In this document: positions 8,786-14,268 of the stretch, piece after piece
How the letters are laid out: the number at the start of each line of letters is the position of its first letter
Numbering within the stretch: the first letter of the stretch is position 1
Assembly (NCBI GenBank): GCA_934457235.1
Contig: CAKSHT010000016.1
Location: 1-23,512 of the forward strand
Reading direction: 5' to 3'
Origin: an uncultured Oscillospiraceae bacterium
Lineage (GTDB): Bacteria; Bacillota; Clostridia; Oscillospirales; Ruminococcaceae
DNA: 23,512 nucleotides
Made by a program: the position numbers and the translations under genes
The notes under the pieces: generated by a model
Told to the model about the DNA's origin: nothing
The model's input: only the letters and a program-made list of their open reading frames with translations
Database searches by the model: none

Positions 8786-9166
8786 ATGCGAAAGAACTTC
8801 AGAAGATCCAGAACAGCGCCATTTGCTGCGGGGCTGAGCGTGGGATATACTGCCGCCGCCGTGGTATCTGCGGCAGGTGCGCTGATAATGTGGGCGACAG
8901 GCGCGGACAGCGGAGCCGAGTGGCTGGCTGCGATACTCGCGCTGGCTGCCGGGAGCTTCCTGTGCGGGAGGGCTGCGGGTAAGCTCCGCCGAAGAAACGG
9001 ACTTAAAACCGGAGCAGTATGCGGAGTTGTGTTTATTATCCCGCTGCTCCTGCTGGGATTGATATTCGGCAGGGCGGAGGGCGCTATGCTGCCGGTTAAG
9101 CTGCTGCTGTGCCTGGGATTTTCCGCAGCCGGCGGAGTTTCCGGGGTCAACGCTCCGGAAAAGTGA
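8786..9166 (+). CDS. TIGR04086/DUF3792-like four-helix membrane protein
   Basis: Small integral membrane protein, 126 residues, with four hydrophobic stretches at about 12-38, 45-60, 76-95 and 102-120, and basic clusters at the N-terminus (RKNFRRSR) and in the central loop (KLRRRNGLK). Size, helix number and the Gly/Ala-rich helices fit the TIGR04086 family of Clostridia and Bacilli; no biochemical function is established for that family, as far as I know. The ribosome site is weak (GGGTGAT overlapping a very short leader). It overlaps the YlbJ-like gene by one base (TGATG), so the two are translationally coupled, and both lie behind a sigma-E-like promoter, which suggests a role in sporulation. 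Confidence 0.75.
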   Translation: MRKNFRRSRTAPFAAGLSVGYTAAAVVSAAGALIMWATGADSGAEWLAAILALAAGSFLCGRAAGKLRRRNGLKTGAVCGVVFIIPLLLLGLIFGRAEGAMLPVKLLLCLGFSAAGGVSGVNAPEK

Positions 9167-10242
9167 TGGGCGCGGCAAGAAAGTATCTGCTGTCCGGGTT
9201 GGTTCTGTGCGCGGCGGCGGGAGTGATATTGTGTCCGGCGGAGCTTTCGGCGGCGGTCAGAAACTCGGTTTCCGGCTGTCTGGAGGTCGTGATACCGGCG
9301 CTGTTTGCGTTTACTGTTATCTCAATATACATTCAGCGCAGCGGACTGTATCTCACGGCATTCGCGCCGCTGACAAAGCCGCTGTCCAGGCTGCTTCGGC
9401 TCCCGGAGGAGCTGTGCGCGGTGTACCTGCTGGCAAACATTGGCGGATATCCGGTAGGCGCACGGCTCCTGTCTGAGCTTGTTAAGTCCGGGAGATTGTC
9501 GAAGAAGGACGCAGGGCGCATGCTGTGCTGCTGCTACGGGAGCGGGCCGTCTTTCGTTATAGGGACAGCAGGCACTGAGGTTTTCAGGAGCGCAGGGGCT
9601 GGCGGAGTGATATACGCAGCGTGCCTTGTTTCGTCGCTTGTTGTGGCGCTTGTCGTCTGCCGTGCCGGGGAGCGGATAACGCTCGGCAGCGGCGAAAACC
9701 GGCTTGACCTTTCCGCAGACTGCTTCGTCAGGTCGGTAGACAGCGGAGCCAGGGTAATGTATACGGTATGCGCAATGGCTACGGCATTCGCGGGGATTAC
9801 GGCTCTGCTGGAGCGCTCCGGGATAACCAGGGCGGTATCGTGGCTGCTGGAGATCGCCGGATTTGGCGGGAACGCAGACCGCGTATTCCCGGCGTTCCTG
9901 GAAGTCACGAGAGTACGCGGTATGCTGCCGGACGGAGTGCTTGCGGCTCCGTTGTGCGCGGGTCTGCTGAGCTTCGGCGGTATCTGCGTGATAATGCAGG
10001 TCATGGCGGTGTCCGGAGGGCTTGTCCCGGTGCGGGGACTGCTGATATTGAGGATACCGGCGGCGCTGCTGAGCGCAGCACTCGCGTTCCCAGTGAAATT
10101 CCTTCCGGACGCGGCGCAGGAGGTATATTCCGCGAATGCTGCGTCAGTCGAGGCGTTCTCGGTGAACGCCGGACTTTCCATGTGCGTGATGATAATGGCG
10201 GCAATTCTTATCATTTCTGTCAGCCGCATGACCAGCGAATAA
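9166..10242 (+). CDS. ylbJ: YlbJ-like sporulation membrane protein (nucleoside-recognition/Gate domain)
   Basis: Polytopic membrane protein of 358 residues with about eight hydrophobic segments. The Gate-domain signatures are visible: VIPALFAFTVIS, LLANIGGYPVGARLLSEL and CCCYGSGPSFVIGTAG; the last two correspond to the paired half-helix motifs that line the core of this fold. B. subtilis YlbJ is somewhat longer (about 408 residues), is made in the mother cell under sigma-E and is required for normal spores. The start is ATG 9166, inside the TGA of the upstream gene; the frame is open from 9109, but that would overlap by 58 bases. It converges with dpaBA, which suggests a link to dipicolinate movement or spore maturation. 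That link is inference. Confidence 0.8.
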   Translation: MGAARKYLLSGLVLCAAAGVILCPAELSAAVRNSVSGCLEVVIPALFAFTVISIYIQRSGLYLTAFAPLTKPLSRLLRLPEELCAVYLLANIGGYPVGARLLSELVKSGRLSKKDAGRMLCCCYGSGPSFVIGTAGTEVFRSAGAGGVIYAACLVSSLVVALVVCRAGERITLGSGENRLDLSADCFVRSVDSGARVMYTVCAMATAFAGITALLERSGITRAVSWLLEIAGFGGNADRVFPAFLEVTRVRGMLPDGVLAAPLCAGLLSFGGICVIMQVMAVSGGLVPVRGLLILRIPAALLSAALAFPVKFLPDAAQEVYSANAASVEAFSVNAGLSMCVMIMAAILIISVSRMTSE

Positions 10243-10245
10243 AAA

Positions 10246-10272
10246 TACCTGCCGAAAAGATTTCGGCAGGCT
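10246..10272. repeat. Left target-hairpin copy of element 1 (also terminator of the ylbJ-like gene)
   Basis: A 27-base sequence with the hairpin CCTGCCGAA-(AAGAT)-TTCGGCAGG starts 4 bases after the ylbJ stop codon. It is repeated at 10499-10525 with a single mismatch (A/C in the loop). Both copies can act as hairpin terminators, although neither has a long T run. Confidence 0.85.
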
Positions 10273-10498
10273 CAGTCTGTCAAAAAAGTAAATTTTGCCC
10301 GCGAAGCGGGCTTTTGAAATCAATTTTTTGACCCAGCTTTGCCGGGTCAAAAAATACTTCTATCCGCACAAGTGTGCGGTTTGTCGGCTATGCCGACAAA
10401 CCGTGCGCGCAGAAGCGAAGCGGTGGACTTGGGCAACGCCCAATGTCCTCGGATTGTTTCGGCGGAAAAGTCACTTTAGTGACTTTTTCGACGGTCTC
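10273..10498. mobile_element. Multi-hairpin MITE-like element, copy 1
   Basis: 226 bp, non-coding. Terminal inverted repeats are GTCAAAAAAGT (10279-10289) and ACTTTTTCGAC (10482-10492), one mismatch. Successive hairpins are GCCCGC-GAA-GCGGGC (10297-10311), TTTTTTGACCC/GGGTCAAAAAA (10324-10354), CCGCAC-AAGT-GTGCGG (10364-10379), GGTTTGTCGGC-TAT-GCCGACAAACC (10378-10402), TTGGGC-AAC-GCCCAA (10429-10443) and AAAAGTCACT-TT-AGTGACTTTT (10466-10487). The first 97 bases from 10279 match copy 2 at 91 positions. There is no transposase, so mobilisation in trans is inferred. Confidence 0.75.
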
Positions 10499-10525
10499 TA
10501 CCTGCCGAAAAGCTTTCGGCAGGCT
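10499..10525. repeat. Right target-hairpin copy of element 1 (also terminator of dpaB)
   Basis: Direct repeat of 10246-10272 with one mismatch; perfect stem CCTGCCGAAAG/CTTTCGGCAGG. It lies 12 bases beyond the dpaB stop codon on the minus strand, so it can end the dpaAB transcript. Confidence 0.85.
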
Positions 10526-10537
10526 TTCGCGTTGTCG

Positions 10538-11146
10538 TTAATCAGCGCCCGGCGCGGCGGTTATCATAGGCTGTATCTGTATGCCGTCAAGGGCGGCTTC
10601 TATCGTCTGCGGGATCCTGTTGAAATCCGCGATCATTGAAAACGGCTTGTTCACCGGATCGTCCTGGAATACCGGTACAAAATAAAAGTTCCGGTAATTG
10701 CGGAGTATACCGATGTTCTTTGAAGCGCCGGAAAGCGCGTCGTTGGTGGATACCGCGATCACTACCGGGCGCTGGCTGCGCAGATGGCTTTTTACGGCAA
10801 GACATACCGGAGTGTCTACGATACCGGCGGCAAGCTTGGCGAGAGTGTTTCCGGTGCAGGGAGCGACAAGAAGAATGTCGAACATCTTTTTCGGGCCGAT
10901 CGGCTCGACAGTCGTCAGTTCGTGAAGCACGGTCTTTCCCGTGATGTCGAACAGACGCGCGGCGTGCTCCTGCGCGCGTCCGAAGCGGGTGTCCGTGGTG
11001 TAGGCGTTGTCGGACATTATCGGGGTGATATCGCATCCGGCAGCGGTCAGTTCCGACAATACCCGGAACACCCGGGAAAACGTGCAGAATGAGCCGCATA
11101 TCGCCGCCCCTATCCGCAGCCCGGCAAGTTTTGAGATATCGGTCAT
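10538..11146 (-). CDS. spoVFB: Dipicolinate synthase subunit B (flavoprotein-like)
   Basis: Subunit B of the enzyme that makes dipicolinic acid, the calcium-chelating compound of the spore core, from a lysine-pathway intermediate. The 202 residues match the usual size (about 200). Diagnostic parts are RIGAAICGSFCTFSRVF near the N-terminus, the flavoprotein-type LLVAPCTGNTLAKLAAGIVDTPV, and AVKSHLRSQRPVVIAVSTNDALSGASKNIG. The ATG at 11146 is the only usable start in this frame before the SD. The nearest Shine-Dalgarno, AAAGGAGG (11183-11176), is 29 bases upstream with a hairpin between. It is 52 bases downstream of dpaA in the same operon. Its presence indicates that the organism can probably form dipicolinate-containing spores. 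Confidence 0.92.
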   Translation of the reverse strand: MTDISKLAGLRIGAAICGSFCTFSRVFRVLSELTAAGCDITPIMSDNAYTTDTRFGRAQEHAARLFDITGKTVLHELTTVEPIGPKKMFDILLVAPCTGNTLAKLAAGIVDTPVCLAVKSHLRSQRPVVIAVSTNDALSGASKNIGILRNYRNFYFVPVFQDDPVNKPFSMIADFNRIPQTIEAALDGIQIQPMITAAPGAD

Positions 11147-12181: not shown

Positions 12182-12757
12182 ATGAATATATGGCATGACA
12201 TCGACCCGGCGCGCATCACGCCGAATGATTTTATGGCGGTTATTGAGATAGAAAAGGGCAGCAAGAAGAAGTACGAGCTTGACAAGCAGACCGGACTTAT
12301 CGTACTGGACAGAATCCTCTACACATCAACGCACTATCCTGCAAATTACGGATTTATCCCACGCACTCTGGCGGATGACGGCGACCCGCTGGATGTTCTT
12401 GTGCTCTGCAACGAGCCTATAGACCCGCTGGTGCTTGTGCAGTGCTATCCTATCGGCGTTATCACGATGCTGGATAACGGAAAGAACGACGAAAAGATAA
12501 TCGCTATCCCGTTTGAGGATCCGACGTATAACGCATATCGCGGAATAGAAGCTCTGCCGAGCCACCTGTTTGAGGAGATGCGCCACTTCTTCTCGGTATA
12601 CAAGGCGCTGGAGGGCAAGGAAACCGCTGTCAATGAGGTAATGGGACAGAAACAGGCTGTTGAGGTCATAAAGCAGTGTATAAAGAATTACAATGAGATT
12701 TATGCGCCGCTGCATCCCTACAAGCCGGAGCACCATACAAAGGGAAGCAAGGCATGA
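12182..12757 (+). CDS. ppa: Inorganic pyrophosphatase, family I
   Basis: Soluble Mg-dependent enzyme that hydrolyses pyrophosphate and so drives biosynthetic reactions. It has 191 residues. The family I active site is complete: EIEKGSKKKYELDK supplies the basic substrate-binding residues, HYPANYGFIPRTLADDGDPLDVLVL contains the D-x-D-P-x-D metal signature, and the C-terminal part holds FFSVYKALEGK, a family feature. The frame is open from 12119, but ATG 12182 has AAAGGAG seven bases upstream, so it is chosen. The stop codon overlaps the maf start by four bases (ATGA), so the two genes are translationally coupled. Confidence 0.96.
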   Translation: MNIWHDIDPARITPNDFMAVIEIEKGSKKKYELDKQTGLIVLDRILYTSTHYPANYGFIPRTLADDGDPLDVLVLCNEPIDPLVLVQCYPIGVITMLDNGKNDEKIIAIPFEDPTYNAYRGIEALPSHLFEEMRHFFSVYKALEGKETAVNEVMGQKQAVEVIKQCIKNYNEIYAPLHPYKPEHHTKGSKA

Positions 12758-13323
12758 TACTTGCAAGCCAGTCGCCCAGGCGCAGAGAGCTTCTGGCGCT
12801 GATAACGCCGGAGTTCGAGATTATCCCGGCGCAGGGCGAGGAGGTACTTCCGGACGGGATAACGCCATGCGACGCCGTCAAGCAGCTTTCTAAGCAGAAA
12901 GCGGAGGAGATCGCGGCGCGTAAGTTCCCGGACGGCAGGATCACCGATACGATAATCGCGGCGGATACTGTTGTTGCTATAGACGGCGAGATACTCGGAA
13001 AGCCGTACAGCGCACAGCATGCTTCTGAAATGCTTCATAAGCTGTCCGGCAGGCAGCACAGTGTGTTCACAGGAGTTACGGTGATTTCCGGAGAGCAGCG
13101 CTGTACTTTCGCGGAGGAAACTACGGTGGAATTCTTCCCGCTGACAGAGCAGGAGATCGCGGACTATATTGCCACCGGCGACCCAATGGACAAAGCGGGC
13201 GCATATGGCATACAGGGACGCGGAGCGTTACTTGTACGGCGTATCAACGGCGATTATTACAATGTGATGGGACTTCCCGCCGGAGAGCTTTATCAGCGCC
13301 TCAGGTCAATGAAACTCATATGA
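12754..13323 (+). CDS. maf: Maf-family nucleoside triphosphate pyrophosphatase
   Basis: House-cleaning enzyme that hydrolyses non-canonical or excess dTTP/UTP-type nucleotides to the monophosphate and pyrophosphate. The 189 residues contain the Maf signature at the start (LASQSPRRRELL, residues 3-14), IIAADTVVAIDGEILGKP with the catalytic Asp, LSGRQHSVFTGV, and DKAGAYGIQGRGALLV with YYNVMGLP near the end. It follows ppa with an ATGA overlap; the product of the Maf reaction, pyrophosphate, is the substrate of Ppa, so the pairing is functionally sensible. A hairpin copy belonging to element 2 lies directly after the stop codon. Confidence 0.95.
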   Translation: MILASQSPRRRELLALITPEFEIIPAQGEEVLPDGITPCDAVKQLSKQKAEEIAARKFPDGRITDTIIAADTVVAIDGEILGKPYSAQHASEMLHKLSGRQHSVFTGVTVISGEQRCTFAEETTVEFFPLTEQEIADYIATGDPMDKAGAYGIQGRGALLVRRINGDYYNVMGLPAGELYQRLRSMKLI

Positions 13324-13324
13324 A

Positions 13325-13352
13325 AAACGGGCTGCGTAATGCAGCCCGTTTC
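13325..13352. repeat. Left target-hairpin copy of element 2 (also terminator of maf)
   Basis: A 28-base sequence with the stem AAACGGGCTGC/GCAGCCCGTTT around GTAAT, next to the maf stop codon. It is repeated at 13588-13615 with one mismatch. Its sequence is unrelated to the hairpin pair that flanks element 1. Confidence 0.88.
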
Positions 13353-13587
13353 AGCTTGTCGAAAAAGTATCTTTTGCCCGCGAAGCGGGCATTTGAAATC
13401 CATTTTTTGACCCAGCTTTGCCGGGTCAAAAAATACTTCTATCCGCGCAAGTGTCTAAGCGACGGCTGCGCCTTACGCAAGGCGACGACCTGCGGTCTTA
13501 CGCTGGTTTGTCGGCTTTGCCGACAAACCGTGCGCGCGGCGTGGATGTTCGGCGGAAAAGTCCCAACGTGACTTTTTCGACGGTCTC
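13353..13587. mobile_element. Multi-hairpin MITE-like element, copy 2
   Basis: 235 bp, non-coding, same orientation as copy 1. Terminal inverted repeats GTCGAAAAAGT (13358-13368) and ACTTTTTCGAC (13571-13581) are perfect over 11 bp. Blocks shared with copy 1: 13358-13454 (91 of 97 identical), 13505-13537 (32 of 33 identical) and 13548-13587. Copy 2 carries a private 50-base segment (13455-13504) with its own hairpin CGCCTT-ACGC-AAGGCG, and lacks the 47-base segment 10411-10457 of copy 1. The element looks modular, with hairpins as units. Confidence 0.75.
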
Positions 13588-13615
13588 AAACGGGCTGCGT
13601 AATGCAGCTCGTTTC
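13588..13615. repeat. Right target-hairpin copy of element 2 (also terminator of the HD-GYP gene)
   Basis: Direct repeat of 13325-13352 with one C/T difference, 2 bases from the stop codon of the HD-GYP gene on the minus strand. The hairpin serves that gene as a terminator-like structure. Confidence 0.88.
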
Positions 13616-13617
13616 TG

Positions 13618-14223
13618 TTATGCTATATGCTTGTAGGTTTCCTCAACGATATGCCAGTTGTCAAGCATCGCTTTTGCTACCTGCGGGTCGTACATCACGC
13701 CGGAGTTCTTTTCAATCTCCTCGCGGACGCGGGAAAGCGGCATGGCTCTGCGATACGCGCGGCTGCTTGCCATTGCGTCGATGGAGTCGCATACTGCGAT
13801 TATCCTGGAGCCTAGCGGTATCTCCTCGCCTTTTGCGCCGAATGGATAGCCCTTGCCGTCAAAACGCTCATGATGGTGCAGGATTATAGCGGCAATTCTG
13901 TCGAAATTGTGGCAGCCGGAGAGTATATCGGCGCCTATTTTCGGATGCTGTTTCATCAGCTCCCATTCGTGGTCGTCCAGACGTCCGGGCTTCAGCAGAA
14001 CGCTGTCTGGAATGCCGATCTTTCCTATATCGTGAAGATGTCCGGCTATATGTATCTCCCGTGTGGCATCGTGAGAAAGTCCAAGGATATGGCACAGCTC
14101 GCACGCCATGTCGCTCACCCGGCGAGAATGGTTCCCAGTGTACGGATCACGGGCGTCCAGCGCGGAGGTTATGCAGTCAACTAGGTCGTGCTCCTCAAAA
14201 TTGGTTTCACAGTCGCAGCTCAT
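13618..14223 (-). CDS. Stand-alone HD-GYP domain protein (probable cyclic-dinucleotide phosphodiesterase)
   Basis: 201-residue soluble protein consisting almost only of an HD-GYP domain, a family that hydrolyses cyclic di-GMP or related cyclic dinucleotides. All hallmark residues are seen: His32 in GNHSRRVSDMA, the HD pair His64-Asp65 in GHLHDIGKIGIPD, LLKPGRLDDHEW, KQHPKIGADIL, and HHHERFDGKGYPFG with the GYP at 125-127. There is no receiver, GAF or membrane part, so its input signal is not evident. The frame extends to 14259, but ATG 14223 has AAAGGAG seven bases upstream. The first residues, MSCDC, include two cysteines of unknown meaning. It is monocistronic, convergent with maf. Confidence 0.92.
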   Translation of the reverse strand: MSCDCETNFEEHDLVDCITSALDARDPYTGNHSRRVSDMACELCHILGLSHDATREIHIAGHLHDIGKIGIPDSVLLKPGRLDDHEWELMKQHPKIGADILSGCHNFDRIAAIILHHHERFDGKGYPFGAKGEEIPLGSRIIAVCDSIDAMASSRAYRRAMPLSRVREEIEKNSGVMYDPQVAKAMLDNWHIVEETYKHIA

Positions 14224-14268
14224 ATTATCGCTCCTTTCGGCATTAGAACAGGCTAACACCTACATTAT

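Follow-up and report, generated by a model that had tools for sequence, protein, structure and literature searches.

We report two non-coding elements of 226 and 236 nt, each with copies of a 27-bp hairpin on both sides, in a 23,512-nucleotide stretch of DNA, called the window below, from an uncultured Oscillospiraceae bacterium. The unit is very probably a MITE that is moved in trans by a DDE transposase of the IS1182 family, its target being a palindrome and usually an intrinsic terminator. The link between MITE and transposase is a putative one that draws on the ends of the elements and on their behaviour. In the mechanism that we propose, the transposase would target the extruded terminator hairpin and would cut and join at both of its 5' feet; the whole hairpin would be duplicated, leaving one copy on each side of the element, and the target's fold rather than a fixed stagger would determine how much is duplicated. 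We infer both the extrusion of the hairpin and the cutting at its feet. We also lean towards the broader view that this branch of the IS1182 family measures its duplication by the secondary structure of the target, with cuts at the 5' feet and full-hairpin duplications of about 20-39 bp, and that its MITEs are conserved folded cassettes which spread through the 3' ends of genes and leave one hairpin with a T-run for each direction.

The 226-nt non-coding unit with terminal inverted repeats, described beforehand as lying between 27-base hairpins that differ by one mismatch, was confirmed at 10246-10525 (Table 1). The left 27-mer of copy 1 is TACCTGCCGAAAAGATTTCGGCAGGCT and the right 27-mer differs from it by that mismatch. 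The hairpin of copy 2, AAACGGGCTGCGTAATGCAGC[C/T]CGTTT, is also 27 bp long and is unrelated to that of copy 1, and this lack of likeness between the two loci indicates that the hairpins belong to the target. The inner terminal repeats of copy 1 (GTCAAAAAAGT / ACTTTTTCGAC) have one mismatch in 11, and GTCGAAAAAGT, with at most one mismatch, occurs four times in the window against 0.5 expected, a count reached in 0 of 100 shuffles; two of these four matches are the bounds of copy 2. The true ends of the elements lie 6 nt outside these 11-mers and abut the hairpins (CAGTCTGTC... and ...GACGGTCTC). No transposase-like frame was seen inside the window elements in the list of open reading frames, in agreement with the MITE-like passenger proposed earlier, and the elements have the marks of IS1182-derived MITEs: they are short, have no transposase, and carry IS1182-like ends and flanking direct repeats. 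The preliminary description knew of no named family for the unit; its ends and behaviour match those of IS1182-family insertion sequences.

Table 1. Features of the two insertions and of the neighbouring genes, in window coordinates.
Feature	Position	Strand	Basis
YlbJ-like ORF, neighbour of copy 1	9109-10242	+	TIGR02871 79.7 bits, below cut-off 304.65
Left target-hairpin copy, insertion 1	10246-10272	.	direct repeat; absent from copy 2
Element copy 1, 226 nt	10273-10498	+	end motifs and flanking direct repeats
Left end of copy 1, CAGTCTGTCAAAAAAGT	10273-10289	+	end-motif search
Internal hairpin of copy 1, with A and T flanks	10323-10355	.	inverted repeat; helix 2 of the interior structure
Right end of copy 1, GAGACCGTCGAAAAAGT read on the minus strand	10482-10498	-	end-motif search
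Right target-hairpin copy, insertion 1	10499-10525	.	direct repeat, one mismatch
dpaB, neighbour of copy 1	10538-11146	-	NF006161 249.2 bits, above cut-off 156
Maf-like gene, neighbour of copy 2	12754-13323	+	PF02545; TIGR00172 above cut-off
Left target-hairpin copy, insertion 2	13325-13351	.	27-bp repeat, one mismatch
Element copy 2, 236 nt	13352-13587	+	end motifs and flanking direct repeats
Right target-hairpin copy, insertion 2	13588-13614	.	27-bp repeat, one mismatch
HD-domain protein gene, neighbour of copy 2	13618-14259	-	PF13487

Relatives of the element were collected by scanning a collection of species genomes with the 18-nt right end, which gave 68 stretches, 33 of which were examined, and by searching seven MAGs with a two-end pattern, which gave 7 to 29 matches each against 0 to 3 for the backward control. 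From 74 stretches fetched, leaving out one single-ended match in G005, 56 gave 57 two-ended elements after overlapping spurious end pairs had been removed, and 18, without paired ends by the rule, were uncounted. The scored set thus consists of 59 elements, 57 from the seven related MAGs and the two window copies. The relatives are mostly 159-191 nt long, the rest being 220-334 nt, and in four cases (L170, L172, L173 and L175) the interiors are quite different, yet the ends and the hairpin repeats are similar. Three matches to the 17-nt right end were found in viral contigs, none of them with element-like surroundings, and the interior was unmatched there.

A strong direct repeat (score of at least 12), 12-35 nt in length with a mean of 25.7, was found at the ends of 49 of the 59 elements and is a hairpin in almost every case. 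When the left flank of one element was paired with the right flank of another, the same score was reached in 2 of 3422 pairs, both of which would be accounted for by the common hairpin and flank of L118 and L120. The outer eight positions of the repeat are self-complementary at a level of 0.88 in place against 0.20-0.31 when shifted by 1-8, and the repeat, although variable in length, is centred on the dyad of the hairpin (offset 0) at 46 of the 48 sites measured, the remaining two being off by 0.5 and 1 base. The statistics show that the repeat is centred on the hairpin, and the earlier proposal that the element enters at a terminator-like hairpin and doubles it entirely is supported. With a whole hairpin left on each side, it appears to be the target's shape and no fixed distance that determines how long the duplication is. 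The correlation of repeat length with a simple measure of stem-loop length is moderate (r = 0.52), partly because A/T pairs often lengthen the stem past the repeat. At 43 of 49 sites a T-run directly follows the repeat on the right or an A-run directly precedes it on the left (both at 16), against 2 and 5 of 49 at positions 14 nt further out, so that the majority of targets resemble intrinsic terminators.

Empty sites with one hairpin, which had been named beforehand as support for such a duplication, were found for one complete insertion sequence, with both flanks, and for two MITEs of related genomes, with one long flank each, though not for the window's own insertions. The orthologous sites of the complete element, L184, in G302 and G238 hold both flanks and one hairpin, and the alignment of the joined-flank query crosses the junction and covers 1047 nt (86.6%) in the first and 611 nt (83.1%) in the second. 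In G226 an element lies after dpaB between two AGAGGTAAGAG...CTCTTACCTCT hairpins, and G101, G235 and G236 have one similar hairpin after dpaB, with orthology on the dpaB side only. The element of G224 lies between two AACCGC...GCGGTT hairpins where G225 has one similar hairpin; the two sites match at 83% over 455 nt of left flank and, on the right, at 11 of 14 nt of a short flank. Both MITEs of L362 in G224 are at synteny breaks with G225, G207 and G221, and only the L364 site is informative. No empty site for the two window insertions was found among the dpaB and copy 2-neighbour loci of the relatives: the dpaB loci, listed for 30 of the 38 matching genomes, mostly have one hairpin after dpaB, of other sequence and with different DNA beyond, the seven orthologues of the copy 2 neighbour offered no usable empty site, and the joined flank pair was spanned by none of the loci compared.

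Ends of this type also bound complete insertion sequences. L184, found in G032, measures 1562 bp, carries a transposase ORF of 487 aa and has identical 39-bp hairpins on both sides; its transposase, of the DDE type, scores 389.2 bits against the IS1182 model NF033551 (cut-off 270); this family-model test covers L184, the other copies being placed by tblastn similarity or record annotation only. Eight complete copies have terminal inverted repeats and identical direct repeats of 21-39 bp, namely L184 (39 bp), L229 (29), L232 (31), L235 (21, one base of which is probably fortuitous), L418 (21), L417 (34, with two stop codons in the transposase frame) and the plasmid copies of Cetobacterium somerae (22) and Peribacillus pB (24), and all fall within the range of 2-60 bp given for IS1182 by ISfinder, as quoted in PMC7335449. 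L417 and L418 come from the same genus as the MITE carriers. The ends of L418 are CAGCCTGTCGAAAAAG and GTTTTTCGACAGACTG, the first of which compares with the window-element end CAGCTTGTCGAAAAAGT. Complete IS1182-type elements have ends similar to those of the MITEs; at the right end the MITE GACGGTCTC and the GACAGACTG of L418 differ at 3 of 9 positions.

A search with the L184 protein gave matches in 22 of the 297 family genomes at E 1e-60 and, within the genus of the MITE carriers, in 5 of 43 genomes at E 1e-12; transposase copies of intact length occur in G221, of that same genus. The end pattern was matched in 85 of the 197 genomes of the family of G003. Many contigs of G144 and G065 end just inside element ends, as multicopy insertion sequences can cause, and in G144 the insertion edges touch the foot of a hairpin in 20 of 20 cases, these being the ones listed of 21 counted matches, against 243 of 6826 control positions (3.6%). 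In the seven MITE-rich MAGs no intact transposase was found; decayed fragments are found in G004 only, adjoining an end whose flank is no hairpin, and PF13751 matched a single fragment, in G007, which lacks matching ends. Multicopy insertion sequences are often missing from MAGs.

The observed dyad symmetry would also arise from a symmetric reader, and a transposase dimer of the same family might read the inverted arms as double-stranded DNA with variable spacing, making extrusion unnecessary. We consider this unlikely, as the length of the repeat ranges over 20-39 bp depending on the target, no common arm motif was noticed, and great flexibility would be required of such a dimer. To the reading in which the hairpins are themselves part of the mobile unit, and which could appeal to their abutting the ends at most loci, we give almost no credence: nearly every locus has a different hairpin, as the 2 cross-matches in 3422 indicate, and the empty sites hold a single one. 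The locus-specific nature of the hairpins, which the preliminary description had named as support for its account, refutes this reading.

Copies with unlike hairpins on their two sides suggest that exchange or deletion occurs, and the second hairpin might be a later acquisition, in which copies or adjacent hairpins exchanged sequence by recombination or gene conversion. At dozens of loci the two hairpins abut the ends exactly and are alike in a locus-specific way, and this, together with the empty sites with two flanks, makes later exchange a very improbable source of the second hairpin; it was set aside. CRISPR adaptation by Cas1 duplicates palindromic repeats, and by analogy some other integrase, such as a Cas1-like one, might produce a similar outcome through whole-repeat duplication; the complete elements that behave in this way carry a DDE transposase of the IS1182 type, as encoded by L184, and integration of the Cas1 kind, which was likewise set aside, is highly implausible. 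Group IIC introns insert at terminator hairpins too, but they are retroelements without inverted ends or hairpin duplication, and this reading was also dropped.

Several findings speak against the main reading, among them the lack of an intact transposase in the seven MITE-rich MAGs. Ten of the 59 elements are without a strong repeat. L106, L127, L143, the second element of L144, L152 and L166 are read as having diverged hairpins, L132 as two neighbouring elements around one hairpin, L168 as a wrong end pair, and L114 and L140 as being without any hairpin. Among the IS1182-type elements, L228, L231, L189/L236 and the plasmid copies L428 and L429 have a hairpin on each side, but the two are unlike, perhaps, at a guess, through exchange or deletion between copies; L240, as read, has an 8-bp repeat and lacks the hairpin, and the Thermocaproicibacter plasmid copy has no repeat in the stretch compared, which is truncated by the start of the record. 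A look-alike set of 22 MITEs in G226 and G101 (L292-L311), with ends such as CAGACTGTATATAAAG, has exact 6-7-bp repeats at A/T-rich sites in 9 of 22 cases and in one more with a mismatch; one member has a 28-bp near-identical hairpin repeat, most others are weak and a few lie at hairpins. The mostly short or weak repeats of this set indicate that the procedure does not yield hairpins everywhere and that elements of similar look do not all behave alike.

Palindromic targets have been reported for some IS1182 members (cited in PMC4923244 and PMC5678879), and in this, in the similarity of the ends and in the NF033551 match of the L184 transposase, the elements described here resemble that family; they differ in the dyad-centred duplication of the whole hairpin, which is not described in the IS1182 accounts compared. 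ISCaa15 and MITEPye1 are reported to have 4-bp repeats (PMC3196728, PMC11578231), and it is in these direct repeats that MITEPye1 of Paracoccus yeei, a 159-bp MITE with IS1182-like ends, departs from our elements (PMC11578231). In targeting there is a likeness to IS1272 and TnSha1, IS1182-family elements of Staphylococcus whose targets are also stem-loops, often terminators, with no sequence consensus (PMC4923244, PMC5678879). Furi et al. 2016 (PMC4923244) describe terminator targeting with deletion, and in the account of Wan et al. 2017 (PMC5678879) IS1272 replaces the hairpin, duplication of the stem-loop being the hypothetical pathway b of their Fig 13, one of three routes. IS1272 thus deletes or replaces the stem-loop without target duplication, whereas the elements here keep and double the hairpin, and stem-loop replacement of the IS1272 type does not describe them. 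In the parts of the open-access literature compared, no report of observed whole-hairpin duplication was found for IS1182 or its MITEs, and the curators of ISfinder may know of one.

The phenomenon is real and recurrent and largely as the preliminary description supposed, but it is that of a named family. What is new is the hairpin-centred duplication at many loci, along with the empty sites; the best described member of the family deletes the hairpin instead. In DDE transposition the joining sites normally lie at a fixed distance, and a few bases are duplicated as a result. Here that distance appears to vary with the target's fold, and to do so with exact symmetry, which could account for the range of 2-60 bp quoted for IS1182 and suggests a way for an element to settle at gene ends with little harm. 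It also opens structure-guided target choice to direct testing, and the hairpin-deleting relative IS1272 offers a natural comparison.

The interior of the element was aligned for 35 of the 59 elements, the window copies and 33 relatives, picked by interior and length. Across this alignment a six-helix structure with 50 pairs shows 97.4% pairing, and 22 pairs are changed on both sides against a shuffled mean of 12.9, with 0 of 500 shuffles as high; slid by one to three columns, it is 41-52% paired, a control that is biased in its favour since the consensus guided the drawing of the structure. RNAalifold, unaided, arrives at almost this structure and differs in the first helix. The stem of the internal hairpin of copy 1 has paired changes among relatives, and the fold of copy 1 together with its hairpins is much stronger than that of shuffled sequences (z -12.4). 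The selected form could be either an RNA or a single DNA strand. Rfam gave no match at gathering threshold in the window, and three matches in the element, far below thresholds, were taken as chance.

The gene pairs around copy 1 and around copy 2 are both convergent. The YlbJ-like ORF, which has no Pfam match at 1e-5, ends 3 nt ahead of the left hairpin of copy 1, and DpaB also scores 224.3 bits against TIGR02852, just under the cut-off of 229. After insertion, the gene-proximal hairpin is backed by the element instead of a T-run, the original T-run lies beyond the far-side hairpin, and each direction retains one hairpin with its original tail. The earlier suggestion that each gene was handed one terminator therefore holds as far as there is one hairpin with a T-run per direction, but that hairpin is on the far side of the element; the only match resembling a terminator in copy 1 is the left hairpin, read on the minus strand, which for dpaB lies on the far side. 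Transcripts may read on across the element if they are not stopped by the hairpins inside it.

Several minor observations were made along the way. The loop of the same terminator hairpin is oppositely oriented in G302 and G238 (L284 and L285), as if flipped between its arms. A different repeat of about 210 nt with inverted ends GAGCTTGTGTTAATAGG... occupies about 9000-9221 of L362 in G224 and is missing from the same site in G225, G207 and G221. Around position 3015 of L132 (G002), two elements stand back to back and share one hairpin, like a repeat-element-repeat array, and at 2001-2032 of L192 (G036) two inward-facing ends nearly touch and pair into a hairpin, while the hairpins that flank them are unlike each other; similar places occur in G173.
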